From Thermosinus carboxydivorans Nor1 (GTDB taxonomy: Bacteria > Bacillota > Negativicutes > Sporomusales > Thermosinaceae), in contig NZ_AAWL01000001.1 in NCBI RefSeq assembly GCF_000169155.1, forward strand, positions 202,001 to 266,000: DNA of 64,000 bases, given 5' to 3'. The translations under genes were made by a program, and so were the position numbers. Shown here piece after piece: positions 6,289 to 52,275 of the stretch (the stretch's first letter is position 1; each line of letters begins with the position of its first letter). Under the pieces are notes generated by a model, which had not been told where the DNA came from, did not search any database, and saw only the letters and a list, made by a program, of their open reading frames with translations.

Positions 6289-6693
6289 CTAGCGGCGGCC
6301 TCCTTCGCTACTCATCGCGCTTTCATATTTGTGGAAAGCGACAATGGCTTCGATTAATTTGGCGAAATCGCGGTATTTGTCCGCGCTGGTGCCAATGGCG
6401 CGGATACGGTCGATCAGCTTAGCTTTAGTGACAAAGTCTTTAACATCCTTTTCCCGGCCGCTTTCATAGGCAAGTTTGACTTCCAGATAGCGGATCTCGT
6501 CGGCCAGCGGTTTGGGCAGTTCTTTCAGCTCATTGCCGGCGCCGGTCTGGCTTTGGTACGCTTCCAGTTTGTTGTTGATGGCGTTGACGGCCGTAAGGAA
6601 TTTACGAAGTTTAGTGGTATTAAGCCTAATTTTGCCGTCGCGGTCTTTAAGGTCGGCGACAATTTTTTGCGCTTGTTTGATAATCTCGTCCAT
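6289..6693 (-). CDS. csm2: Type III-A small subunit Csm2
   Basis: Small all-helical subunit forming the inner filament of the Csm complex along the target RNA. The 134-residue sequence is rich in charged helices, with TTKLRKFLTAVNAI and a C-terminal stretch RDFAKLIEAIVAFHKY resembling other Csm2 proteins. The start codon overlaps the cas10 stop by one base, and csm3 begins 2 bp later. Csm2 proteins diverge quickly, so the call leans on position as well as sequence. Confidence 0.9.
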   Translation of the reverse strand: MDEIIKQAQKIVADLKDRDGKIRLNTTKLRKFLTAVNAINNKLEAYQSQTGAGNELKELPKPLADEIRYLEVKLAYESGREKDVKDFVTKAKLIDRIRAIGTSADKYRDFAKLIEAIVAFHKYESAMSSEGGRR

Positions 6694-9209
6694 TAATTGA
6701 ACCCTCCTTCTATGGCAGAATGCGCCTGCGGCGCGCGCAGGCCGTACAATAAAAGCTGCAGAGCAGTAGCCACCTGGCGGCGGCTAGATGGTTCGCTGTA
6801 CCAGCGGAATACCCGGCCGGCAAATTCGCGGTATACGGGTTTAAGGTTGTTCTGCATCGGCTCAAGCCGGGCCAGCAGGTACGCCAGGCGGGCGAGGTCG
6901 ATGCGGCCCTGCTCGTCCGGCACGGCGTCAAACATGGTATACAGTTTGTACAGCGCGCCGCGGGAAATGGGCAGGGTGCCGCTCGCGCCGACGCGCGCGC
7001 CATCTTTGCCCAATGCCAGGGTAGCGCGGAAAAAGGTTAATTTATCGTCCAGTACGCCGCTTATAAAATCGTCCCAGCGATAACAATGACGGCACGTAAA
7101 GGGGCTGGTTTCCTTAGTTGTGTCTTTGGCGAGGCCGAACAGGGCGACGCTGTCTTTAGCGGGGTTGTGTTTGGCCTCATCCTCCAGCTCGCCGGCGATT
7201 TCCGCCATGCGGGCGACAGGGTAATGCGGCGGGAAAAAAGCAATGCCGGCAGACAGCGTCAGCTTGTCGGCGGTGAAGCGGCGGAAGGCCTGACGGATAT
7301 CGACCGCGAGCGCGATGATATCGTCCCAGGCGCCGACGATTACATAATCGTCGCCGCCGGCGTAGACGATCGACACTTTGCGGGCGGCGGGCGGCCGGTC
7401 CCATAGGCTAAGCGGTGCCATTTCGTCCGCCTCGCCGCGCAAATTGCCGCGGCAGATATCGTTAATGTGATATTTGAAAAAAAGCGACAGCTGGCGCGAC
7501 AGCGTCGCGTACCGGGAAATAGTGGCGTGCTTTTGGGCAAAGCCGGCGATAAAGGCGCTGCCCAGGTTGTCGACATCGGCCCGCAGCACGGCTAAACGCT
7601 CGATACCGGTGCTGGCCGCGGCCAGGTCTTCAAACGTCATGACGGCGCCACTGGCGTGGCGGCTGACATAGTCGCCGGTCCACAGGCAGGTTGCCAGCAG
7701 ATCGCCGGCGGCCATTTCGTTTTTGGCGTAAAGCCGAAGCAGTTCGCCTGTTTTTTGTAAATGGGGCACCTCGTCTTTTTTTACGACGTGCAGGGTATTG
7801 CTGCCGGCAAGCGCGGGCAAGGCAATGCCGCCGCCGCTATAGCCGGCGGTGACAGCAAACACGCTATCCGGCTGCAGCAGGCGTTCGCCAAAGGTATAGA
7901 GATCGTGACAGCGGGGGCAGACATACATATCAGGTTTATCTTTAAACGGCACCAATTTTTGGTTGGACGTATTGCATACGCCGCACTCGCGGGTGGCATC
8001 GGCAACGGCATTAAGCGGACTGTGCGGGTCAAACAGCTTGGCCAACTGCTTGTTATTATAGCGGCGCAGTTTGGCCGTCGCCATTTTGGCGGCCAGCGCC
8101 TGGAAAACGGCGCCGGTGCCGCTTTTGCCGTTGGCGTCAGATCCCATCAGATCATTGGCCGCGGTTTCCTGCCACACTATTTCCAGATACAGCGCCGTGC
8201 CGAACTGCTCCAGCAGCCAGTCGCTCACACGCTCCTTGATATTGCTTAGCAAGGTTATTATCGCCGGCGTATTAGGCAGCAGCAGCCGGAAGTGGCCGCC
8301 GCCGGTATATAGCAGATTGGCTCGGCTGAGCCCAGCCGCGCTTAAAATTTCGTCGGCGATGGTTTCCAGCAGCATTTCCAGGTAAAACGACCGCCCGCGC
8401 AGCGACTTGAGCGCACCGGCGGATGGAATGGTGTAAATGAAGTTTTGGATGCCGCTGATGTCGCCCGCGGCCAACAAGAAAGCGTTTTGCCGGCGAAAGT
8501 CGGCGTTGCCGCTGCCGTAGCACCAGTGCTGCCAGTCGGTGATGCCCTGCGCGTGGAAAAAGTCGTACATGGCGGCCGCGATCGCTGCCGTCAGGCGGCT
8601 GTGGTCATACAGAGAAATATCGTTGGCCTCGTCGGTGGCCGTGCTGGCCGGTATGTATGACGTTACCGCCTCGATTACTTTTAGCACTTCATTGACATGG
8701 CAGGCGGCGAAGTTGATTTTTTTCAGATTAGCCTTAAGCGTATCTAGCAGCAAGTGATATTTGTCGGCAGAAGCAATAATCGTACCGCTGGCGGCCGGGT
8801 AGTTGATCAGGCCGGTTTCCGTCAGACCGCGCAAGTAGTGGACTTTTTTCGCGCCGGCTCCGTTTAAGCGGGTAAAAATGCTCTCCAGCGGAGCAGTGAG
8901 ATCAAACCCGGGCGTAGCCGTTTCGTCTTTGCGGCGGTCGACGCCGGCGGCGATATTGTCGGCTTCATAAACAAGCCAGGCGAGATGCTTGGTGTCAGTA
9001 AGGCCGCGTACGTCAGCAGCATGATGGTTGGCGACGCACTCGAGCAGCAGCCGCCCGTCGTCGCTAGCGGCGAATTCGCCCAAGCAGTCGGCTAAAAAAG
9101 TACGACCGCGTTGGCTGTGGCTTCCTTCGCCCCACCCGGCGCGGTAGCAAATTTTGCCGACATCGTGCAGCAGCCCTGCCAGCGATATTATGCGGATCCA
9201 TCGCTCCAT
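6693..9209 (-). CDS. cas10: Cas10/Csm1, HD nuclease and cyclic oligoadenylate synthase
   Basis: Large subunit of the type III-A complex. The N-terminal HD domain keeps H15-D16 in LAGLLHDVGK and a later NHHAADV, so single-stranded DNase activity is predicted. A zinc ribbon (CGVC ... CPRC) lies in the middle. The second Palm domain keeps YAGGDDYVIVG with GGDD at residues 618-621, the site that makes cyclic oligoadenylates from ATP. At 838 residues it is full length. AGGAGG sits 8 nt before the ATG. As first gene of the csm operon it is transcribed away from the CRISPR array and separated from it by a 22-bp hairpin. Intact GGDD agrees with the two CARF effectors downstream. Confidence 0.96.
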   Translation of the reverse strand: MERWIRIISLAGLLHDVGKICYRAGWGEGSHSQRGRTFLADCLGEFAASDDGRLLLECVANHHAADVRGLTDTKHLAWLVYEADNIAAGVDRRKDETATPGFDLTAPLESIFTRLNGAGAKKVHYLRGLTETGLINYPAASGTIIASADKYHLLLDTLKANLKKINFAACHVNEVLKVIEAVTSYIPASTATDEANDISLYDHSRLTAAIAAAMYDFFHAQGITDWQHWCYGSGNADFRRQNAFLLAAGDISGIQNFIYTIPSAGALKSLRGRSFYLEMLLETIADEILSAAGLSRANLLYTGGGHFRLLLPNTPAIITLLSNIKERVSDWLLEQFGTALYLEIVWQETAANDLMGSDANGKSGTGAVFQALAAKMATAKLRRYNNKQLAKLFDPHSPLNAVADATRECGVCNTSNQKLVPFKDKPDMYVCPRCHDLYTFGERLLQPDSVFAVTAGYSGGGIALPALAGSNTLHVVKKDEVPHLQKTGELLRLYAKNEMAAGDLLATCLWTGDYVSRHASGAVMTFEDLAAASTGIERLAVLRADVDNLGSAFIAGFAQKHATISRYATLSRQLSLFFKYHINDICRGNLRGEADEMAPLSLWDRPPAARKVSIVYAGGDDYVIVGAWDDIIALAVDIRQAFRRFTADKLTLSAGIAFFPPHYPVARMAEIAGELEDEAKHNPAKDSVALFGLAKDTTKETSPFTCRHCYRWDDFISGVLDDKLTFFRATLALGKDGARVGASGTLPISRGALYKLYTMFDAVPDEQGRIDLARLAYLLARLEPMQNNLKPVYREFAGRVFRWYSEPSSRRQVATALQLLLYGLRAPQAHSAIEGGFN

Positions 9210-9390
9210 CGGCTAGTCCTCCTGTAAGCCTGCAGCTGGTGGCCGCAGTAGAATTTTGTTTTTATTTTAACAAAAACAGGGCATGAGAGTTGTCGAAACT
9301 TGTCAATGCGGTGGTTAAATTTGCAAAAATTTTCAGGTTAGCGCTATTTAAACTTTGCTGGGAAAACTGCTGGCAATGACGCGGGTTCGA
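9210..9390 (-). promoter_or_regulatory. Upstream region of the csm operon
   Basis: Gene-free stretch between cas10 and the array terminator. Read on the minus strand it is AT-rich near cas10, with a TTGACA at about 9295 and a TTAAAAT further down, but the pair is not at ideal spacing, so no promoter box is assigned. The cas10 ribosome site AGGAGG lies at the proximal end. A promoter somewhere here is inferred because the hairpin at 9391-9437 should stop transcripts from the array. Confidence 0.4.
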
Positions 9391-9437
9391 CGAAAAAGGA
9401 AGAAGCAGGCACGTGGTGCCTGCTTCTTCCTTTTTCG
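9391..9437. terminator. Strong bidirectional terminator between array and cas10
   Basis: Perfect 22-bp inverted repeat (9391-9412 and 9416-9437) with a 3-nt loop GTG. Each arm holds a five-base A or T run (CGAAAAAGG / CCTTTTTCG), so the hairpin ends in U-rich sequence in both directions. It lies only 5 bp from the last CRISPR repeat and should end the precrRNA read on the minus strand. Confidence 0.8.
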
Positions 9438-9442
9438 CTGAG

Positions 9443-12298
9443 GTTTCCGTCCCCTTACGGGGGTTTTGTTTTTAAACACGCCAAACGAACACTGCGAATC
9501 ACAAAACTGTCTGAACCTGCCCGGTTTCCGTCCCCTTACGGGGATTTTGTTTTTAAACGATACATGAAAAGTCGTTTAAAGCCTTGGTTGAACTGCCAGG
9601 TTTCCGTCCCCTTACGGGGATTTTGTTTTTAAACGCTGGAAGAGGCGCGCAAATATTACGAAGGGCTTAAAGGTTTCCGTCCCCTTACGGGGATTTTGTT
9701 TTTAAACCCCCATGGCTTGCGCCATGGAATAATGCCATTTTCCAGTTTTTGGTTTCCGTCCCCTTACGGGGATTTTGTTTTTAAACCGCGGCAGGCATGG
9801 GATGACAACTGGAAGGTAGTCAATTCCGTTTCCGTCCCCTTACGGGGATTTTGTTTTTAAACATGGCATAGTCGTCTAAACAAAAGCGACGGTGCACCAT
9901 ACAATAGTTTCCGTCCCCTTACGGGGATTTTGTTTTTAAACCTAATATAGTACCTTACGGTACTATCGTAAATCGCTTCAATTCAATGTTTCCGTCCCCT
10001 TACGGGGATTTTGTTTTTAAACCTTTGCACATCTTCGAGTGCGAAGATGTGCGGCCAGAATAAAGTTTCCGTCCCCTTACGGGGATTTTGTTTTTAAACT
10101 TGAACCGACCAGGACGCAAGACTGGAAGGAGGTCGTTAGCCGCGAGTTTCCGTCCCCTTACGGGGATTTTGTTTTTAAACTATTGTATTACTGTATTACC
10201 TTCCGGCCGAAGAAAGTGAGGAATGTTTCCGTCCCCTTACGGGGATTTTGTTTTTAAACCGTGACAGGGGGATAGTCGCCAATATGCCATTCGTCATAAC
10301 TAGCAGTTTCCGTCCCCTTACGGGGATTTTGTTTTTAAACCAAAATTCCTGGCCTTCACTAAAAACTTTGCCCTAGATTTTTCGTTTCCGTCCCCTTACG
10401 GGGATTTTGTTTTTAAACAGTACATATCAGTGACGGTAACAAAAAAATAGGTAGGATTAAGAATGGTTTCCGTCCCCTTACGGGGATTTTGTTTTTAAAC
10501 GGAGACATACCAGACAGTATCATCAATTACATTGACTACGTTGTGTTTCCGTCCCCTTACGGGGATTTTGTTTTTAAACGTACGACTCGTCTCTAAAATT
10601 CTCGTTTTCCGTCTTCGACAGCGGTTTCCGTCCCCTTACGGGGATTTTGTTTTTAAACTTAATCGAACATGGCCCAGCCAATTACAATTTTGACCCAAAT
10701 GGTTTCCGTCCCCTTACGGGGATTTTGTTTTTAAACTTCTTGAAGCCGCAAAAGAGCGCATAGCCTATATTTTTGAGTTTCCGTCCCCTTACGGGGATTT
10801 TGTTTTTAAACTCCTCGCTAATTTCGGGTAATAACCGGCCAAGTTGCTCAAGTAAGTTTCCGTCCCCTTACGGGGATTTTGTTTTTAAACTTTTCTTCGC
10901 TGAAATAGCAAAGACTCTAAATAGGGCCAGAAAGTTTCCGTCCCCTTACGGGGATTTTGTTTTTAAACTGAAAATGCCGATGACTATATTGGCTATACAA
11001 TCATTACATGTTTCCGTCCCCTTACGGGGATTTTGTTTTTAAACTTCTCTATTTCGTGTTGGTATATAGGAGACTGGGAAAAGTGTAGTTTCCGTCCCCT
11101 TACGGGGATTTTGTTTTTAAACAATAGTAAAACGGGAGGAGAATAAACATGAAATTAAGTGAATTTAAGTTTCCGTCCCCTTACGGGGATTTTGTTTTTA
11201 AACTACATGTCCATGGCTGGGTAATGTTAAAACACCTGGATGAAGGCGGTTTCCGTCCCCTTACGGGGATTTTGTTTTTAAACGGGTAAGAGGTAAAAAA
11301 TGGATTGGCTAATTGGCACCAGTTTGTTTCCGTCCCCTTACGGGGATTTTGTTTTTAAACCACTATGATTTGGCTGAACGAATGTGGCAGATGGGTAAGG
11401 TTTCCGTCCCCTTACGGGGATTTTGTTTTTAAACCTGGTTTAACGGGGACATTGTTCTCCTATATTACCTTCCTGCCGAAAGTTTCCGTCCCCTTACGGG
11501 GATTTTGTTTTTAAACGTCTGTGCCCGAAGTGATACCAGTTAACCGCCCAAAACAATGTTTCCGTCCCCTTACGGGGATTTTGTTTTTAAACTTTGTCAG
11601 GGGCTTATACCATAAGGTTCTGCCTGAGAACCAGGTTTCCGTCCCCTTACGGGGATTTTGTTTTTAAACTAAAACGCAAATCCCTGCTCCTTGTACTGTG
11701 TGGATTACCACGGTTTCCGTCCCCTTACGGGGATTTTGTTTTTAAACCGCTTATCACCAACGCTTACACTGATATACTTGACGTAGACTTAGGTTTCCGT
11801 CCCCTTACGGGGATTTTGTTTTTAAACGCTGCGACTCGCAAAACCAAAAAAGCAGCTCGTATTATTTACGAGTTTCCGTCCCCTTACGGGGATTTTGTTT
11901 TTAAACGCTTGCCGGCGAACCTGGTCATAGTTGCTAGTGAATGGGGCGACGTTTCCGTCCCCTTACGGGGATTTTGTTTTTAAACTCATAGTTGCTAGTG
12001 AATGGGGCGACTGGAAGGCGCCAGAATAGTTTCCGTCCCCTTACGGGGATTTTGTTTTTAAACTTCTTTGCGAAGAAATTAGCAAAGATGCAGAATTATC
12101 TCCTACTGTTTCCGTCCCCTTACGGGGATTTTGTTTTTAAACACGCGTGCAATTTCTGCGAAGTAATCATTCACATTCTCTTGCGTTTCCGTCCCCTTAC
12201 GGGGATTTTGTTTTTAAACTATAAAAACGAAGAAAGGGCAAGACAATGGATTCGGCGCGAATTGTTTCCGTCCCCTTACGGGGATTTTGTTTTTAAAC
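9443..12298 (-). CRISPR. CRISPR array, 37 repeats of 35 bp, 36 spacers
   Basis: Repeats start at 9443, 9524, 9600, 9673, 9752, 9828, 9907, 9988, 10065, 10146, 10225, 10306, 10384, 10466, 10545, 10624, 10702, 10777, 10856, 10934, 11010, 11088, 11169, 11249, 11326, 11400, 11482, 11558, 11635, 11713, 11793, 11872, 11951, 12029, 12108, 12185 and 12264. Spacers are 38-47 bp. The plus strand reads GTTTCCGTCCCC...TTTTTAAAC; the minus strand ends in ACGGAAAC, the usual form of a type III 5' crRNA tag, so transcription is leftward. Two facts agree: the only variant repeat (A to G at base 21) is the leftmost, and cas1-cas2 plus a leader lie at the right. The repeat forms CCCC-GUAA-GGGG, a stem with a GNRA-type loop, for Cas6. 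Confidence 0.98.
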
Positions 12299-12471
12299 CC
12301 TGTGCCCGCTAGGTCGCACGGTTATTGGGCTGAATCGGCGGTTTGCGGGGCTGACGCTAGTTTTGGCGCACAAGCGGCGCCAAAAATTGCCAAAATGCCG
12401 AGGAAGCCTTGATTTTCCTATAGCGGGGGCAATTCCAACTTCCTTCCTTATTATATTTTTCATCATTATTA
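12299..12471 (-). promoter_or_regulatory. CRISPR leader
   Basis: Sequence between the cas2 stop and the first (newest) repeat. It is AT-rich next to cas2, with ATAATAATATGATAATAATG on the minus strand, and contains an inverted repeat TTTTGGCGC / GCGCCAAAA (12361-12369 and 12377-12385). The part from 12322 to 12430 has a colinear homologue upstream of cas1 at 13931-14039. It should hold the array promoter and the spacer-integration signal; the exact promoter boxes were not resolved. Confidence 0.75.
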
Positions 12472-12813
12472 TCATATTATTATTGTGCCGTTGTCGTCAA
12501 CAAATTCTTCGCGTCCCCATGACAGTACCGACATTTTGCCGCTTAAAAGATAAATACGCAGAGAGTCTTCGGTTTTGTCGATTAGTCTTGGCGCGATTTT
12601 TACCAGCCGATCATACCGGCGCCGTTCAAGTTGGCATTCAAAAGCCGATTTTTGCACGCGAAAACCAAAGGCTTCCAGCAGTTTTACCATGCGCCGGCGG
12701 CGCTTATTGCAGACAATATCATAGATGACTAGCACAAAATATTTCTGTGGTAAGGCCATAGCGGCCGGCAAGCTTTCGTCGTCCAATTCCAGCCAGTTTT
12801 TCTCCATTGCCAT
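12472..12813 (-). CDS. cas2: CRISPR adaptation protein Cas2
   Basis: Structural partner of Cas1 in spacer acquisition. The ferredoxin-like core starts at YFVLVIYDIV, with the conserved Asp on the first strand, followed by KRRRRMVKLLEAFGFRVQKSAFEC and later LRIYLLSG. About 20 residues precede the usual Cas2 start, so either the protein has an N-terminal extension or translation begins at an internal ATG at 12759. No clear ribosome site decides between the GTG at 12816, the ATG at 12813 and later ATGs. It lies 17-20 bp after cas1. Confidence 0.9.
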   Translation of the reverse strand: MAMEKNWLELDDESLPAAMALPQKYFVLVIYDIVCNKRRRRMVKLLEAFGFRVQKSAFECQLERRRYDRLVKIAPRLIDKTEDSLRIYLLSGKMSVLSWGREEFVDDNGTIII

Positions 12814-12833
12814 CACCGTTTCGTAATTTTAGC

Positions 12834-13832
12834 TTAGCGTATATATACAGGCTCATATATATCCGGATCTTCATCCAAGACTGCTTTGGCAAGCAGACTT
12901 GTTTGGCGGGCAAGCAGTTGGCGGAAGGTGAGCTCTTTGCCGCCGTATTTGTTTAACTTTGTCAGTCGTTTTTCGTAGGCGGCGATGAAAGAGGCCGCTG
13001 CCTCGCGGCACAAATATACGCCGCCTTTTTCGTCCGGCGGCAAAAAATCGCACGGCTGTATTTCCCGCCGCTGAATGACCGACATAACCAGAGCGTCGAT
13101 GATAGTCGGCCGCCACTCTTCCATTAAATCAGATACCAACGTGGGATGGCCCTGGCGGTCTTTATGGATAAGACCGGCATAGGGATGAAGGCCGGCATTT
13201 TGCACGATTGTATACAGGTCATACATCAGCAAGGTGTAGCCAAAACTAAGAAGCGAGTTAAAGGGGTCTTTGGGGGGCTGCCGGTTACGGCCGGAAAAAT
13301 GGAAATCGTCGGGAACTAAGTGTGATAAGGCTTGAAAATAGTTACGGGCGGCAATGCCTTCCAGACCCAAAACTTTTTCAATGGTTTCCGCCGAATCGAT
13401 ACGGTCTAAATATACCTTTATAACTTCGATATAGTGTGCTACTTCTTCTTTTTGGGCCGTGCGCTGGTAACGCCGGAGGATGGTTAGACAGTTGGCGATT
13501 TTGGCCCCAATGATTGATTTGGCCAATTTGAGGCAAAAGTCAAACCGCTCGCCCATTTTAAATTGTTGGCGTTGCTTATGAATGTCGACATGACGGGTTG
13601 ATTCAAGACGGCCATAAAATTCACCCGCGCTAGACAGCCAAGTCAACGTTATGCCCCGCTTTAAAAATTCGGTTATTGTTTTGGCCGTAACTTGAACGCT
13701 GCCGAACAGCACGACGTTGTCCAGTTGTTCGGCAGGTATTGCGTGGAGGATTTGTTCGCCTTTGCAGACGAGAAACCTCCCGCCGCTTTTTTGTAGGTGG
13801 CTTCCCGCGTCTGTCACATAAAGTGAACGCAT
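12834..13832 (-). CDS. cas1: CRISPR integrase Cas1
   Basis: Metal-dependent integrase that inserts new spacers at the leader end. The 332-residue protein has the N-terminal beta domain (MRSLYVTDAGSHLQKSGG) and the helical catalytic domain with GLEGIAARNYF, NAGLHPYAGLIH and SDLMEEWRP carrying the conserved Glu, His and acidic cluster. AAGGAGG lies 15 nt before the ATG, rather far; an ATT codon three codons upstream would be better spaced, so the true start may be slightly longer. The 5' region is unusual: a palindrome at 13868-13920 and then a CRISPR-leader-like sequence. Confidence 0.95.
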   Translation of the reverse strand: MRSLYVTDAGSHLQKSGGRFLVCKGEQILHAIPAEQLDNVVLFGSVQVTAKTITEFLKRGITLTWLSSAGEFYGRLESTRHVDIHKQRQQFKMGERFDFCLKLAKSIIGAKIANCLTILRRYQRTAQKEEVAHYIEVIKVYLDRIDSAETIEKVLGLEGIAARNYFQALSHLVPDDFHFSGRNRQPPKDPFNSLLSFGYTLLMYDLYTIVQNAGLHPYAGLIHKDRQGHPTLVSDLMEEWRPTIIDALVMSVIQRREIQPCDFLPPDEKGGVYLCREAAASFIAAYEKRLTKLNKYGGKELTFRQLLARQTSLLAKAVLDEDPDIYEPVYIR

Positions 13833-13867: not shown

Positions 13868-13920
13868 GGGACGGTTCTTTTGACAATGTTAATTTTTTCC
13901 ATTGTCAAAAGAACCGTCCC
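13868..13920. repeat. GGGACGGTTC-type palindromic repeat (family C, copy 1)
   Basis: Perfect 21-bp inverted repeat (13868-13888 and 13900-13920) with an 11-nt T-rich loop. The arms contain GGGACGGTTC and TGACAATG and recur at 50411 and 52207 in this window. It sits in the untranslated region of cas1, 35 bp before the ATG. Confidence 0.85.
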
Positions 13921-14155: not shown

Positions 14156-14400
14156 TAAGAGACGGCCGGAAGGTAAAAGGGCAAGAACTTTCAGGTGCAT
14201 AAACGGCAAAGTTGATTTTTTCATAAACCAATTTAGGTGACATTTTCATGTACTCTTGACAAATTTGCCAAAAAGCTTGACAACAACAGCTGCCGTTTGT
14301 ATAATTTTAACAAGATGTGCCGAAAATTTAATACATTTGTCCATATGAAGTTTACGGAAAAGTACTGGGGTAAGACTATTGTGCTTGACCGTAAACGGAT

Positions 14401-14491
14401 GGACCTCTGGAGAGTCCCTTTCAATAGGGCGCCGAAGGTGCAAGTCGGGATGCAAGTGACCGATGAAACTCTCAGGCAAAAGGACAGAGGG
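14401..14491 (+). promoter_or_regulatory. Glycine riboswitch (single aptamer)
   Basis: Shows the glycine aptamer core in order: CTCTGGAGAG, then GCGCCGAAGGTGCAAG, a variable stem, GATGAAACTCTCAGGCAAAA and GGACAGAGG. Only one aptamer is visible. It is followed by a TACCGCA/TGCGGTA hairpin and a terminator at 14545, then the solute-binding protein gene at 14678. The layout fits glycine-controlled termination or readthrough. Confidence 0.93.
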
Positions 14492-14544
14492 CAGGCTTAC
14501 CGCAGCTTTTTTATTGTGCGGTAGCTAGCTTTTGTCATGTTTGA

Positions 14545-14578
14545 GAGTCAAATCTATTGATTTGGCTCTTTTGTTTTT
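14545..14578 (+). terminator. Riboswitch-linked intrinsic terminator
   Basis: GAGTCAAATC (14545-14554) pairs with GATTTGGCTC (14559-14568) around a 4-nt loop, then TTTTGTTTTT. It lies between the aptamer and the coding start and is the likely expression platform, with the TACCGCA stem at about 14496-14522 as a possible alternative structure. Confidence 0.8.
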
Positions 14579-14677
14579 GCCGGTGTGCTAGGCGCTTTGG
14601 CCAGTTTTTCGGCCCGGGGGTATGCTTTTTGGTATTAAGGCACATTAAAAATTTAAATAGGGGAAGGAGAAGTGTCT

Positions 14678-15847
14678 ATGAATAAAACAGTGTGTAAATT
14701 AAAAACGGTATTGCTGGCGGTGGTTTGGCTGACAGTTACTCTGGCAGGCTGCGGTGGCAATTCAGCGTCTAAAGACATTAAGATTGGCCTACTTAATGAG
14801 ATGACTGGCGGCAACGCAACTTTTGGAACTTCGGCGGCCAATGGGGCCAAACTGGCCATTAAGGAAGCCAATGCCAAGGGTGGGGTGCTGGGAAAGCAAA
14901 TTCAGGCGATTGTTGCCGACAATAAAAGTGAACCGTCAGAATCGGCTAATGCAATGACAAAACTGATTACCCAGGATAAAGTTGTGGCTGTAACCGGCGT
15001 GTTCGCAAGTTCTAACGCGATTGCCGCGTCAAATGTAGCGGAAGCAAATAAGGTGCCATTTTTAGCGGTAGCAGCTACCAACCCTAAAGTAACCGTTGAT
15101 GAAAAAACTGGCAAAGTGAAAGATTACACTTTCCGCGTATGCTTTATTGACCCGTTCCAGGGTACAGTCGGTGCAAATTTTGTACTTAACAACTTAAAAC
15201 TTAAAACGGCGGCAATATTGATTGACAATAGCAGCGACTACAGCAAAGGGCTATCAGCTTTCTTCAAAGATGCTTTTATTAAAGGTGGCGGCCGCGTTGT
15301 GGCGGAAGAAGCGTATTTGCAAAAGGACCAGGATTTTAAGACAATTTTGACCAAGGTCAAAGCACTCAATCCTGAAATTCTTTATGTGCCCGGCTATTAT
15401 GAAGAAGTAGGGAAAATTGTCAAGCAGGCGCGTGACCTCGGCATCATGGTACCGATCGTCGGCGGTGACGGCTGGGATTCGCCAAAACTTGTTGAAATTG
15501 CTGGTGCGGCGGCGCTTAACAACACTTATTTTACCAATCATTACTCGGTTGAAGATAACAGCCCTGCTTCAAAAGCCTTTGTCGAAGCTTACCAAAAGGA
15601 ATATGGTCAAAAGCCAGACGCTGTCGCCGTACTGGCGTATGATGCGGCCAATTTGTTGATTGACGCCATTAAACGGGCCAATAGCGCCGAGCCGGACAAA
15701 ATCCGCCAGGCCTTGGCGGCGACGCAAAACTTCCCTGCGGTAACGGGAGCAACCACGCTTAATGCCACCCATGACGCGGTAAAGAGCGCCGTAATAATTG
15801 AAATGAAGGACGGTAAACAAGTTTTTAAGGCCAAAGTTAATCCATAA
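14678..15847 (+). CDS. Liv-type ABC amino-acid substrate-binding lipoprotein
   Basis: Extracytoplasmic solute-binding protein of the branched-chain amino-acid (LivJ/LivK) class. A lipoprotein signal ends in VTLAGC with the lipobox Cys near residue 26. The mature part begins IKIGLLNEMTGGNATFG, and the fold's GKQIQAIVADNKSEP, VTGVFASS and VIEMKDGKQVFKAK follow. GGAG lies 8 nt before the ATG at 14678; the GTG at 14672 would be too close. No permease or ATPase gene is adjacent and a terminator-like hairpin follows at once, so it acts with a transporter encoded elsewhere. The glycine riboswitch suggests its ligand is glycine or a related small amino acid; that is inference. Confidence 0.9.
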   Translation: MNKTVCKLKTVLLAVVWLTVTLAGCGGNSASKDIKIGLLNEMTGGNATFGTSAANGAKLAIKEANAKGGVLGKQIQAIVADNKSEPSESANAMTKLITQDKVVAVTGVFASSNAIAASNVAEANKVPFLAVAATNPKVTVDEKTGKVKDYTFRVCFIDPFQGTVGANFVLNNLKLKTAAILIDNSSDYSKGLSAFFKDAFIKGGGRVVAEEAYLQKDQDFKTILTKVKALNPEILYVPGYYEEVGKIVKQARDLGIMVPIVGGDGWDSPKLVEIAGAAALNNTYFTNHYSVEDNSPASKAFVEAYQKEYGQKPDAVAVLAYDAANLLIDAIKRANSAEPDKIRQALAATQNFPAVTGATTLNATHDAVKSAVIIEMKDGKQVFKAKVNP

Positions 15848-15858
15848 CAATTCAGTAA

Positions 15859-15888
15859 AACAGGGCGTGCATTATTGCACGCCCTGTT
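15859..15888 (+). terminator. Hairpin after the binding-protein gene
   Basis: Perfect 13-bp inverted repeat AACAGGGCGTGCA / TGCACGCCCTGTT with loop TTAT, 11 bp after the stop codon. The following T-run is weak (ACCTTCTAAAT), so it may be a terminator or an RNA 3' end stabiliser. Confidence 0.65.
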
Positions 15889-17424: not shown

Positions 17425-17823
17425 GTGAACATTGAGCGATTAAGTGAACGGGCGAAGGAATACCAAAAAGCGGTGCGGCGGCTCCAAGAGGCATTGGCCG
17501 AAGATTTATCCAATATCTTAGTTTATGACGGGGTTATTCAGCGTTTTGAATTTACCTATGAACTGGCTTGGAAGCTTATAAAGGCATATCTAGAGTATGA
17601 AGGAATCGCTGATGTCAAGTCGCCGCGCGCGGCTTTTAAGGAGGCTTTTACGGCAGGGCTGATTGATAACGGCGAGATTTGGCTGGAGATGATCGACGAC
17701 CGCAATTTGACGGCCCACACTTATAATGAAGAGAATGCAAAACAGATTTATGCCAAAGTCAAGGAAAAGTATTTTCCCCAGTTCGCTACCTTGGCAAATA
17801 AGATAGCGGAGGCGGTCAAATGA
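17425..17823 (+). CDS. HEPN-type toxin of an MNT/HEPN pair (HI0074-like)
   Basis: Nucleotidyltransferase substrate-binding family protein, a HEPN-fold partner of MNT proteins. Key motifs are VIQRFEFTYELAWKLIKAYL and DDRNLTAHTYN; the latter is the R-N-x3-H candidate active site. The gene overlaps the downstream MNT gene by 4 bp (ATGA), as in two-gene toxin-antitoxin operons where the MNT protein may modify the HEPN protein. 132 residues is normal. Related pairs occur at 49004-49701 and 55821-56550. Confidence 0.85.
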   Translation: MNIERLSERAKEYQKAVRRLQEALAEDLSNILVYDGVIQRFEFTYELAWKLIKAYLEYEGIADVKSPRAAFKEAFTAGLIDNGEIWLEMIDDRNLTAHTYNEENAKQIYAKVKEKYFPQFATLANKIAEAVK

Positions 17824-18119
17824 AGTTTGGCTTGCCGGAACGTGTTGTGCAAGCAATGGTCAAAGAACTTCAGCGGCGGGAAACGGTAAGCCGGGCGGTC
17901 ATTTTTGGCTCGCGCGCCCGGGGCGATTATAAATACAATTCCGATATAGATATCGCCGTGTATTGCGAAGGAAGTTTCCCGCCAGGGCTGCGGTCGGATT
18001 TGGATGAAGCGGCAGGGATTTATAAGATCGATGTTGTTGATATGAATGGCCCGGTGGCGGAAAAACTGCGGCAAAAGATTGAGGAGCAGGGAATAGAGAT
18101 TTATCGGCGGAATGAGTAA
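17820..18119 (+). CDS. MNT-type nucleotidyltransferase antitoxin (HI0073-like)
   Basis: Minimal nucleotidyltransferase of 99 residues with the classic GSRARGDYKYNSDIDIAV motif (GSx10DxD) and a third acidic residue in KIDVVDM. Known MntA-type antitoxins transfer AMP to their HEPN partner. It follows the HEPN gene with a 4-bp overlap and is followed by a clear terminator. Confidence 0.87.
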   Translation: MKFGLPERVVQAMVKELQRRETVSRAVIFGSRARGDYKYNSDIDIAVYCEGSFPPGLRSDLDEAAGIYKIDVVDMNGPVAEKLRQKIEEQGIEIYRRNE

Positions 18120-18253: not shown

Positions 18254-19333
18254 TTAGCCCCCGCAGCGCCGGCGCCTGAGCCGCAAAAGGTCGACAAAGG
18301 CTTCCAGCCGCGTCACTAGGCCGGCTTCGCCCGACTGTTCGTCAAAGGCAAGCGACAGGACCGGGATGGCGGCATCGCTAGCGGCCTTGGGGAGGATGTT
18401 TTTGGCCACCACTTCGGGCATACAGGTAAAGGGAAAGACGTGGACAAGCCCGTCATAGCCGCTTTGTCCCATATGGAGGGCGTAGGCGACGCTTTTGAGG
18501 CCGTGGCCGCCAACATAGTGTCCAAGATAGGGCTGGGCAAGGGAGGCCAGCCGGTGAAAAAGATCGAGATATTCCCGGCGGCGGAAGAGGTGGCCGTTAA
18601 CATAATCGCTCAGGTACATGGTCTGGTGGACTTCTACGCCCATACTTCCCAGCCGCCGCACCAGGTCAAGGTTGACAAACGGCTCCAGCATAACATAAAT
18701 CTCGCCGACAATGCCGATGCGCAGCGGCGCCGGCTCGGCCCGGACGGGCAGAGCCGCCAGGCGGGCAGCCGCGTCCTGCCATATTCGCCTTAGCGTGGTA
18801 AGGTCCGCGGCGTCATCAATCGCCTGCCTGGCATCCTGCCAAATGTCGTTGGCGCCGCCGGCAGCCGCTTCCCGGGCGCGGAGAAAGGAGACCTGCCGCT
18901 CAAGATTGTCAAGGGCGTTCATCTTCGCCAGGCCAAGGCGAAAGGACTGGTAGACCTGCCACAGACCCAGACGGGGGGCGAGCCGGCGGATGCTATGCAA
19001 GACATCGGGCAGATTGGGTTCAAATACCACCATCGTGAAATCATAGCCGAGGCTGCGCAGGATGCCCTGCTGCACTTCGGCATAGTAACCCAGCCGGCAG
19101 GGACCGACGCCGCCGCAGGTGATGAGCGTATCCGCCCCCAGTTCGAGGGCTTCGATGAAATTGCCGAGCGTAACTTTGAACGGTAAACACACCATTTCCG
19201 GCGCGTATTTGACGCCCAGCGCAAGCGTCCGCTTGGAAATGGGCGGTGGGGGGAGAACGGTGCAGCCCAGGCCGGTAAAAATGGCCTTAAGGGCTATGCT
19301 TAAATGGCCCATATGGGGAAAAGTGACGATCAT
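18254..19333 (-). CDS. 2-hydroxyacyl-CoA dehydratase-related protein (DUF2229-type)
   Basis: A 359-residue protein of the HgdB / acyl-CoA dehydratase activase-associated superfamily. YAPEMVCLPFKVTLGNFIEAL and LITCGGVGPCRLGYY contain conserved Cys residues that in relatives bind an iron-sulfur cluster; VHVFPFTCMPEVVAKNI and LSLAFDEQSGEAGLVTRLEAF are typical of the C-terminal half. It overlaps the paralogous gene upstream by 4 bp, so the two are probably subunits of one complex. No activase (HgdC-like ATPase) gene is adjacent. The substrate cannot be told from sequence. Confidence 0.75.
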   Translation of the reverse strand: MIVTFPHMGHLSIALKAIFTGLGCTVLPPPPISKRTLALGVKYAPEMVCLPFKVTLGNFIEALELGADTLITCGGVGPCRLGYYAEVQQGILRSLGYDFTMVVFEPNLPDVLHSIRRLAPRLGLWQVYQSFRLGLAKMNALDNLERQVSFLRAREAAAGGANDIWQDARQAIDDAADLTTLRRIWQDAAARLAALPVRAEPAPLRIGIVGEIYVMLEPFVNLDLVRRLGSMGVEVHQTMYLSDYVNGHLFRRREYLDLFHRLASLAQPYLGHYVGGHGLKSVAYALHMGQSGYDGLVHVFPFTCMPEVVAKNILPKAASDAAIPVLSLAFDEQSGEAGLVTRLEAFVDLLRLRRRRCGG

Positions 19334-20241
19334 GACAGTTTCCTCCGTAGCAGCATATCGGTAAACGCCTCCAACCGGGTGACAAAGCCCGCTTCGGCCG
19401 TGTGTTCATCCAGGGTGAGCAGCATGCAGGGGATGTTCCGGTTGTGGGCACGCTGGCTGATTAGTTCGCCGACCAGGGCGTCGGGGCCGCAGGCAAAGGA
19501 GCTCATAAAAATGATGCCGTCCACCGGTGGTGCCTCGTGCATCAGGCTGAGGGCGGCGCCGGCCATGTGGGCGCTGTTTGACCAAAAAATTTTCTTGCCA
19601 AGTGTTTTAGCGGCCGCGGCCGCCCGGCGGGCAGCAACCGCATCCGGGGTGACAACGGCCACGCCCAGCTGCTGGAGTCGCTGCAACACGCGCATACTGA
19701 TTTGCCGGTCATGGATGAGATAGGGGTGGGCGATGAGGCCGACGCGCCGCCTTTGCGGCGGCATGCTGGCTGCAGGAACGATACTGTGAATATACCGCCA
19801 GGCACGGTACCAGGCGGCGATGGTTGGCAGCGAACCTTTACCCAGCAGGCGGCCTACGCCAACAATGGCCTGGTACAAGCTGCGGGCGCCGCGCCGCAGG
19901 TTGACGGAGCAGTCGATAAGCGGCGGGAGGTTGGGCAGATTGCTGCGGAGCATGTCTGGCATACCGATGATTTTAGGGCAGGTGTATTGGCCGGCGGCCA
20001 CGCTCACCAGCCTGGGGGTAAACAGGGCATCTACGCCCTGGCGGCACAGGTCGCAGACATGGCCGAAATACACTTTGACCGGCAGGCATACCTCATCAAG
20101 GGCGCTGCCATAATCAAGGGTGGCTTTGGTAGTCTCGCCGGTAACGATTACCTCGGCCCCCAGTTCGCTTAAAAAGCGCTCCCACAGGCTGCCGTACTGG
20201 TAATATAAAAGCCCGCGCGGGATGCCAATGCGCATGGTCAT
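19330..20241 (-). CDS. 2-hydroxyacyl-CoA dehydratase-related protein (DUF2229)
   Basis: A 303-residue paralogue of the next gene. It starts MRIGIPRGLLYYQYGSLWERF, the usual DUF2229 opening, and has LDEVCLPVKVYFGHVCDLC and AAGQYTCPKIIG, four Cys in positions suited to an iron-sulfur cluster. MLLTLDEHTAEAGFVTRLEAF closes it. The 4-bp overlap with the downstream gene implies coupled translation. In larger family members this domain is fused to an activase; here it stands alone. Confidence 0.77.
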   Translation of the reverse strand: MTMRIGIPRGLLYYQYGSLWERFLSELGAEVIVTGETTKATLDYGSALDEVCLPVKVYFGHVCDLCRQGVDALFTPRLVSVAAGQYTCPKIIGMPDMLRSNLPNLPPLIDCSVNLRRGARSLYQAIVGVGRLLGKGSLPTIAAWYRAWRYIHSIVPAASMPPQRRRVGLIAHPYLIHDRQISMRVLQRLQQLGVAVVTPDAVAARRAAAAAKTLGKKIFWSNSAHMAGAALSLMHEAPPVDGIIFMSSFACGPDALVGELISQRAHNRNIPCMLLTLDEHTAEAGFVTRLEAFTDMLLRRKLS

Positions 20242-20716: not shown

Positions 20717-22018
20717 TCAACCTGTCATTGAGAACTCTTTTACTTCTTCGCCAATTATTATCCGAATACTTTGGTCGCTAATAATGAACTGAACATCGTC
20801 GTCCAGTTTCTTTATGTTTTTAACAAGGTTAACTAAACTTTTAATTTTGCTGCGACGCATTTGTTCCGACAAATAGTTTTCCCCAAGCTCCTTATACGGT
20901 TCTTTGCGAATAAGCATGTGGTAAACGATTACAATAATCGCATGTGCTACTGCGACTGCTGCTCGTTTTTTACCTCTTCTGGCTGCTATTCGGTGATATA
21001 ACGACGATAAATAACAGTTTTTCATCCGCGCTATCGTGTGGGCCGCCTGAACTAGCTGCGACCTAAGCTGTGGATTGCCCGGCTTTGCTTTCCCAGATCT
21101 TCGCTTTCCGGCACTTTCGTTGTTCCCTGGAGCTAGACCAGACCATGCGGACACATGTTTGGCGCTTGGGAACCGGCTCATGTCAAGTCCTATTTCTGCC
21201 AATATTACTTGGGCAATCCGTTTCCCTATTCCCGGGATTGTATCTATTAGCTCCAGGGCTTGCTTAAAATTTTCGTCTTCTCGCTCTATCCTTTCCATCA
21301 TCAAGTCTAGTGATGCTATTTGTTTGTCTAAGGCTTCAATAGCTTCAAGTTGGATCTGGATTAGAGCGCGAATGTCAGGGCTTACTATTCCGTCTAGGGC
21401 AGTTTCAAGTTCTTCCTGGGAAGCACTTAGCCGACCACGAGATATTTCAGCCAGTTTTTTGGGGTCATTTACGCCGGCAGCAATTGCTTTGATGATTTCT
21501 TTCGCCGTTACGCCGTTTATATCGCTTACCACTGATGACAATTTTATGTTGCAGCCTTCCAAGAATTTTTGCAGCCGTTGGATTTCACGGGCGCGTTCTT
21601 GAATTTTAGAGGTGCGTAATCTTGTGATTTCCCGCATTTCCCGTTGCCTGCGCTCGGGAATGAAGCTTGGTTTTAGTAGTCCATGGCGAAGAAGCGAAGC
21701 TATCCACTCGGCATCTTTAACATCGGTTTTTCGTCCAGGTACGTTTTTAATGTGCTGAGCATTGACTATTATCGCTTTTATTCCTTCGGCTTCCAGAACG
21801 TTGATAACCGGCTTCCAGTAAACACCGGTGCTTTCCATTGCTACGATTTCAACCTCATGTTTTTTTAACCAATCGGCAAGTTTGTGCAACTGTTCTGACG
21901 TAGTGCCGAAACTGTTGCGCCGCATTTTTTCGCCTACCAGGGCACAGGCTTCAATTTTGCGTTTGTGAATGTCTAACCCGCAACACCGCTCATAAACTAC
22001 CTGGACATTGTTACTCAT
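20717..22018 (-). CDS. IS110-family transposase
   Basis: A 433-residue DEDD-type recombinase. The N-terminal RuvC-like part has [29 protein letters not shown] and [19 protein letters not shown]; the C-terminal transposase_20 part has [21 protein letters not shown] and [27 protein letters not shown] lies 7-8 nt before the ATG. IS110 elements use a structured bridge RNA from their non-coding end, here possibly 22019-22130 or 20607-20716. The element's ends lack obvious terminal inverted repeats, as usual in this family, so its limits are not set. Confidence 0.93.
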
Positions 22019-52206: not shown

Positions 52207-52275
52207 GTGTCAGAGGGACGGTTCTGGTGACAATGGTAAATTTTACCATTGTCACCAGAACCGTCCCTCTGACAC
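52207..52275. repeat. GGGACGGTTC-type palindrome (family C, copy 3, perfect)
   Basis: A perfect 69-bp palindrome, 34-bp arms around a single central base, from GTGTCAGAGGGACGG to CCGTCCCTCTGACAC. The core TGACAATGGTAAA is shared with copy 2. It starts 10 bp after the DUF1847 stop codon. Confidence 0.93.

Follow-up and report, generated by a model that had tools for sequence, protein, structure and literature searches.

The window, by which we mean the whole 64-kb stretch of DNA analysed here, carries a glycine riboswitch followed by a gene for a substrate-binding lipoprotein (SBP) of the HAAT/Liv type. The RNA element was found as a match to Rfam family RF00504 at positions 14397-14497 of the plus strand, covering the full model (1-94) with a score of 70.9 bits (gathering score 32, E 8.9e-13), and it is the sole Rfam match above gathering score in the 64 kb. 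None of 200 dinucleotide shuffles of the region 14335-14580 folds as well as the region itself (z -5.05). A terminator hairpin with a T-run at 14543-14570, a lipobox cysteine (Cys25) and a match of the protein to Pfam family PF13458 (E 1.8e-66) agree with the preliminary description of this locus, which had placed a glycine riboswitch and a terminator before a gene for a lipoprotein of the Liv-type class. The features are as follows.

14277..14305, plus strand: predicted promoter, TTGACA - 17 nt - TATAAT, with 12 of 12 consensus positions (consensus scan only)
14339..14404, plus strand: putative 5' ghost aptamer of a type-2 singlet, from the unconstrained MFE fold; outer helix GTCCAT (14339-14344) with ATGGAC (14399-14404), inner P1-like helix GTTTACGG (14350-14357) with CCGTAAAC (14389-14396)
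14397..14497, plus strand: glycine aptamer RF00504, P1 5' strand at about 14401-14408 and P1 3' strand within 14481-14491
14498..14523, plus strand: hairpin between aptamer and terminator, TACCGCA (14498-14504) with TGCGGTA (14517-14523), read from the sequence
14468..14548, plus strand: predicted antiterminator, ACTCTCAGGCA (14468-14478, aptamer core) with TGTTTGAGAGT (14538-14548)
14543..14578, plus strand: intrinsic terminator, stem 14543-14570 plus U-rich tail (consensus scan)
14664..14670, plus strand: Shine-Dalgarno-like AAGGAGA, read from the sequence
14678..15847, plus strand: HAAT/Liv-type SBP gene, 389 aa, ATG at 14678; lipobox Cys25 at codon 14750-14752, Phe109 (Atu2422 Phe77 column) at codon 15002-15004
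15861..15886, plus strand: strong hairpin CAGGGCGTGC...GCACGCCCTG 3' of the SBP gene, read from the sequence

The hairpin at 15861-15886 is the probable end of a one-gene transcript; it lacks a long T-run and is absent from the output of the terminator scan. According to profile matches, the neighbours of the SBP gene are cas1 upstream, on the opposite strand, and a rubrerythrin gene downstream. The cas1 gene (12834-13832, minus strand) belongs to a type III CRISPR region at 6693-13832, which also includes a gene for a Csm1/Cas10-type protein (6693-9209, minus strand), an array with 37 repeat copies starting at 9424, and cas2 (12472-12816, minus strand). A palindromic element with arms GGGACGGTTCT...TGACA occurs in two copies, at 13868-13920 and 52215-52267 (four arm matches in the window versus none expected from shuffles), and presumably resembles a REP-type hairpin. 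Further downstream lie a HepT-like/nucleotidyltransferase gene pair at 17425-18119, a candidate HEPN-MNT toxin-antitoxin module (Pfam PF08780/PF01934, PF18765), two adjoining genes for DUF2229-type proteins related to CoA enzyme activases on the minus strand at 18254-20241 and, beyond these, a gene for an IS110-family transposase at 20717-22018.

The preliminary description spoke of a single aptamer, and this holds for the number of RF00504 matches: between 14280 and 14680 no second one was found up to an E-value of 10, apart from one overlapping lower-scoring clan match. The RNA starts earlier than had been supposed, however, since helices of 8 bp and 6 bp lie directly 5' of the one aptamer that exceeds the threshold, an arrangement that fits a type-2 singlet, in which a ghost aptamer (14339-14404) would replace the first aptamer of a tandem riboswitch. 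Among the 43 leaders of orthologous SBP genes described below, 17 keep a full first aptamer, above the Rfam score, at the ghost position, the other 26 being single. The 5' element could be located in 40 of the 43 leaders, and in 36 of these 40 the inner helix has at least six contiguous pairs; its sequence varies while the pairing is kept, as in GTCTACGG/CCGTAGAT and TTTGCGA/TCGCAAA. In the available passages of a survey of singlets (PMC6944388), transport proteins are given as the controlled genes of type-2 singlets in 90% of cases. The occurrence of tandem and singlet forms before orthologous SBP genes offers a natural test of the decay of tandem riboswitches to singlets.

The riboswitch-SBP arrangement was searched for in 100 genomes of relatives. 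RF00504 was found in 73 of them (at least 150 matches), and SBP matches with an E-value of 1e-100 or better in 81, the 150 SBP matches listed coming from 57 genomes. When the two match lists were joined and a pair was defined as an SBP gene preceded on its own strand by an RF00504 aptamer at a distance of 136-383 nt, 43 of the 150 SBP matches listed carried it, namely 39 of the 51 with at least 77% identity and 4 of the 99 below that value. The pair is thus not peculiar to the window genome, as could have been supposed; the search of related genomes that the preliminary description had proposed returned, among the matches listed, 43 orthologues in 42 genomes, which the taxonomy table assigns to at least 25 genera and 22 families. 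Given that the named loci of this kind come from Sporomusaceae, Selenomonadales or other Negativicutes, we infer that the pair belongs to Negativicutes.

Among the matches listed, the pair accounts for 43 of 123 riboswitch places. In the 78 other places, taken from 80 other riboswitch clusters (all but G089 C65 and the second G038 C23 entry), the aptamer precedes gcvT (41), gcvH (1), an AGCS symporter gene (18), a gene for a CycA-like permease (7) or other or undetermined genes (11). The CycA-like D-serine/D-alanine/glycine permeases downstream of glycine riboswitches are those of L179, L194, L199, L202, L207, L226 and L228; one was profiled and matched NF008272 with 586 bits versus a cut-off of 732, the query being incomplete. 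Riboswitch neighbours recognised by eye in L188, L229, L235 and L177 include a grdX-like gene with a thioredoxin-reductase gene, a serine dehydratase pair and an aminotransferase gene. The aminotransferase-like ORF follows the riboswitch of G005 C5 (L177), and for this reason L042 was dropped as a further pair: a riboswitch with similar coordinates (G118 C5) turned out to have those of G005 C5. Some genomes have two adjoining SBP copies (L049/L170, L051, L135, L167, L168), with a tandem aptamer between the copies, 5' of the second, in the Acidaminococcaceae-type loci L049/L170 and L051.

Close orthologues with 79-83% identity occur in G061 and in eight genomes of one genus (G007, G017, G021-G025 and G027; Sporomusa, judging from the named loci L022 and L024), and none of them has an upstream riboswitch among the matches listed. 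For 32 relatives at greater distance (L068-L099), a motif search of the sequence 5' of the gene, at most 700 nt long and in some of them short, revealed no aptamer core.

Membership of the window protein in PF13458 (Peripla_BP_6/HAAT) is clear, with 225.6 bits against a cut-off of 31.7. Among NCBIfam models, PRK15404 of the LivJ/K type matches it best, at 178.9 bits versus a cut-off of 477, so that by its sequence it probably works as an SBP but falls outside the LivJ/K filing. The closest solved chains, 3td9 (E 7e-76) and 4gnr (E 1.3e-71), both carry names as branched-chain amino acid binding proteins, and we take them to be TM1135 and pneumococcal LivJ, respectively. The residues lining the pocket were assigned on the assumption that they correspond to those of LivJ/LivK and of Agrobacterium Atu2422. 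At the column of Atu2422 Phe77 a phenylalanine is found in all 43 riboswitch-linked SBPs (Phe109 in the window protein), whereas the four paralogues in the window genome have V, T, I and C, and 3td9 and 4gnr have Val and Ala. Column 132, also in the binding region, holds Gly in 42 of the 43, the exception being the window protein with Ala. In a tree of 112 rows obtained with a quick method, from which 12 named riboswitch loci (many from genomes already included), the fragments L056 and L066, and L058 (no ORF under the rule used) are absent, the 52 rows with Phe form exactly one clade (SH-aLRT 94). Forty-three of these rows have the riboswitch and nine do not; the label requires at least four changes on the tree, and these nine members indicate repeated loss or gain of the riboswitch link.

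The bulky Phe suggests a small ligand. By itself it is no proof of glycine, because Atu2422 shares this Phe and accepts GABA, proline, alanine and valine, as stated in part of a review (PMC5924552). Atu2422 (PDB 3ip5) resembles the window SBP in belonging to the HAAT family and in having Ser at 79 and Thr at 102 besides the Phe77 column; it differs in having Tyr at 202 and Trp at 228, where the window SBP has Leu and Ile, and it is much less similar overall than 3td9 or 4gnr. PDB entry 3ipc has Ala at the Phe77 column. We know of no riboswitch for Atu2422. Glycine is the best guess for the ligand of the window SBP, not a result.

Concerning the expression platform, a terminator-like hairpin lies 3' of the aptamer in all 43 SBP leaders, in most of them with words near AGAGTCAAATC...GATTTGACTCTTTT. 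The terminator 5' arm has at least seven contiguous pairs with the aptamer in 40 of the 43 leaders (the exceptions being L137, L151 and L168) and its partner is the P1 5' strand ACTCTGGA(GAG) in 38, arm-pairing counts that stem from a terminator pattern written with the consensus already known; an earlier automatic pick had taken other hairpins in at least seven leaders, as judged by eye (L145, L154, L155, L158, L159, L160 and L165). The leader of L145 (G012) has its terminator stem words split by a longer insertion, and its riboswitch may be altered or broken. In the window and in a congener the P1 strand reads CCTCTGG and the arm pairs with the 3' core ACTCTCAGGCA over 11 bp, which in the window comprise 9 Watson-Crick pairs and are present in the unconstrained MFE fold; where the P1 strand changed, the arm thus switched partner.

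Equilibrium folding of whole leaders was rejected as a general proof of switching, the mean terminator probability being 0.75 in free leaders versus 0.76 with P1 forced, and a rise of more than 0.2 being observed in just 2 of the 43, one of which is the window leader (from 0.13 to 0.71). As this failed as a general test, the transcript cut at the decision point, just after the terminator 5' arm, was folded instead. There the antiterminator reached a mean probability of 0.90 (0.97 in the window) and exceeded 0.5 in 42 of 43 leaders. The probability of P1 in the cut transcript was 0.00, yet just 0.14 with shuffled tails, meaning that the folding program under-predicts P1 regardless. In a shuffled-arm test the aptamer-arm helix attained p <0.05 in only 19 of the 43 leaders.

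Comparison with the other glycine riboswitches of these genomes revealed a marked difference from gcvT leaders, which share the RF00504 aptamer and are ON switches: the aptamer 3' P1 word GACAGA lies within or just 5' of the terminator arm in 33 of 34 gcvT leaders versus none of the 43 SBP arms, a contrast that rests on the count of this word, given that the helix test of gcvT leaders partly used the first tandem aptamer. The difference between ON and OFF platforms is described in general terms in the passages available from Barrick and Breaker (PMC2258182). Leaders of AGCS genes partly resemble SBP leaders, with at least seven arm pairs to P1 in 8 of 16, and that of the window genome has almost identical terminator stem words (AGAGTCAAATC...GATTTGGCTCT), a near identity that suggests common descent of the AGCS and SBP platforms. 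The AGCS type-2 singlets are also like the window leader in having a ghost aptamer 5' of one aptamer and in controlling a transport gene; they differ in that this gene encodes a symporter rather than an ABC substrate-binding lipoprotein, and for the antiterminator of the window and its congener the partner in the aptamer is the 3' core, not the P1 5' strand. Taken as complementarity and predicted folding, the window leader has both elements of a transcriptional OFF riboswitch, a terminator and an alternative pairing that would block it and would be incompatible with the ligand-bound aptamer. The platform thus looks like an OFF switch, probably decided during transcription.

The preliminary description had also noted that no permease accompanies the SBP gene. 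This is correct for the locus and for its 350-kb contig, on which no PF02653 (LivH/LivM-type) match exists, but not for the window genome as a whole (2.89 Mb in 49 contigs), which has four such matches on two other contigs, that is, two LivHM sets. Of its five PF13458 proteins, two are encoded in livHMGF operons (on contigs C17 and C34) and three are orphans. Among these, a sister SBP on contig C11 (L016 5767-12001) has Thr at the Phe column and adjoins genes for a regulator with PrdR as best match and for sarcosine/glycine oxidase-like flavoproteins, all below the NCBIfam cut-offs; the ligand of this sister SBP may be proline or something related. Within up to 2.5 kb downstream of the SBP, LivH, LivM and LivF are absent from all 42 SBP loci inspected (two of them shorter because the contig ends), and weak LivG-like matches (30-31% identity) lie upstream of the SBP in L166 and L169. 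A LivH homologue is nevertheless present in each of 42 other genomes searched (the 41 with the pair besides that of the window, plus G061), with 77-100% identity in 41 of them and only 46% in G016; in 17 of the 42 it is a single match. These homologues, and the two LivHM sets of the window genome, are candidate partners of the SBP. A comparable case is BraC3 of Rhizobium, an orphan Liv-type SBP which, as a partly available source reports (PMC2978685), shares the Bra permease encoded elsewhere. Like the window SBP it is encoded apart from its permease; unlike it, BraC3 serves branched-chain amino acids and alanine, and a glycine riboswitch is unmentioned in the available part of that source.

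Other systems for glycine are also present. The window genome has four RF00504 aptamers at three places, before the gcvT-H-PA-PB operon, before the AGCS gene (a tandem) and before the SBP gene, and its AGCS symporter matches TIGR00835 above cut-off. An AGCS or CycA gene under riboswitch control was found in 5 of the 42 genomes with the pair versus 20 of the 31 without it (Fisher p 3.8e-6), a test that ignores kinship and in which the count for the 31 genomes is at least 20 among the matches listed, that for the 42 being complete. The window genome itself has both the pair and the riboswitch-controlled AGCS gene, which counts against the main explanation.

That explanation, which we regard as probable, is that an OFF switch makes glycine repress an orphan SBP, which supplies a shared LivHMGF importer with glycine or another amino acid of similar size. 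Its closest competitor retains the OFF switch and takes alanine, serine, proline, GABA or sarcosine for the main ligand, glycine being a proxy for amino-acid sufficiency. The broad range of Atu2422, which shares the Phe (GABA, proline, alanine and valine in the available text of PMC5924552), speaks for it, as does the C11 sister SBP, whose Thr and PrdR-like and sarcosine oxidase-like neighbours suggest that relatives may serve related compounds; we consider it rather unlikely, given that the riboswitch link tracks the Phe column in one clade and that AGCS and CycA genes under the riboswitch are rarer beside the pair, as expected if the SBP serves glycine itself. It is improbable that the lipoprotein is an ordinary branched-chain amino-acid binding protein under incidental glycine control. 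PRK15404 as best NCBIfam match and the names of 3td9 and 4gnr agree with such a protein, but the score is far below the PRK15404 cut-off, a bulky Phe occupies a binding-region column where the paralogues have V, T, I or C, and two other SBPs of the genome already sit in livHMGF operons.

The remaining possibilities concern the direction of control and the role of the protein. Were the riboswitch an ON switch, glycine would induce its own uptake as a growth substrate, which would be compatible with the gcv operon that the window genome has behind a glycine riboswitch of its own, with the glycine ON switches known from the passages available of PMC6944388 and PMC2258182, and with the lack of an OFF rearrangement in most leaders in whole-leader equilibrium folding. 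The SBP terminators avoid the aptamer 3' P1 strand, unlike those of gcvT, and SBP leaders have a distinct arm of their own that can pair with the aptamer, which makes this version highly improbable. Finally, the lipoprotein could be a subunit of a sensor or receptor and not of a transporter, in keeping with its apparently monocistronic gene, placed apart from permeases, and with the lack of LivH, LivM or LivF downstream at the 42 loci within the 2.5 kb (less in two) inspected. This seems exceedingly improbable, for the scan of neighbouring genes in the window showed no receptor kinase, all 42 genomes searched have LivH, and orphan SBPs sharing a permease are known, as BraC3 is in the portion available of PMC2978685.

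Of the two readings in the preliminary description, a glycine-specific SBP of the Liv family and regulation of another amino acid by glycine, the first is hence favoured by the OFF-like platform, the invariant Phe and the lower number of riboswitch-controlled AGCS/CycA genes, although in a slightly widened form that extends to similarly small amino acids; the second is less likely. In the mechanism we propose for the probable explanation, scarcity of glycine would let the terminator 5' arm pair with the aptamer, blocking the terminator so that the SBP gene is read. Bound glycine would hold the aptamer together, braced by the 5' ghost aptamer, and free the arm; the terminator would then form and SBP synthesis would stop. 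The SBP, when made, would most likely capture glycine, or another neutral amino acid of similar size, and pass it to a LivHMGF importer encoded elsewhere, and making or withholding this subunit would change what the shared importer takes up. What the computations show are the parts of the locus, a pair conserved among relatives, the arm-aptamer complementarities, a Phe specific to one clade and a LivH homologue in each genome searched; that RNA and protein bind glycine, in which direction the gene is regulated and which permease is the partner are inferred.

Glycine transporters are among the riboswitch targets in the available text of Sun et al. 2013 (PMC3766115), the accessible main text of which does not contain the terms 'livJ' and 'branched-chain amino acid'. 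The singlet survey (PMC6944388), which counts 125 type-2 and 305 unassigned singlets, in its available portion covers glycine cleavage and transport-protein contexts, and 'ABC transport' is absent from that main text, although its supplementary tables may include some such genes. A literature search over titles and passages, restricted to the best-ranked results and with few subscription journals among the sources, returned no paper recognisable as describing the pair. As an RNA the element is ordinary and belongs to a known class. What looks new is the variant of glycine-regulated transport formed by the gene under its control, the clade marked by Phe and the occurrence of the pair across the bacterial class.

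In its most specific form, which we advance tentatively as possible but short of probable, Negativicutes hold a glycine-specific, Phe-marked branch of the Liv/HAAT family that is repressed by a riboswitch with an AGCS-like platform and retargets the shared LivHMGF importer to glycine. If true, a subunit of an ABC-type amino-acid importer would join the glycine regulon, and a branch of SBPs from at least 25 genera would acquire a ligand hypothesis. The riboswitch would then alter what a shared importer takes up and not the amount of that importer, its specificity being regulated by the dosing of one subunit.
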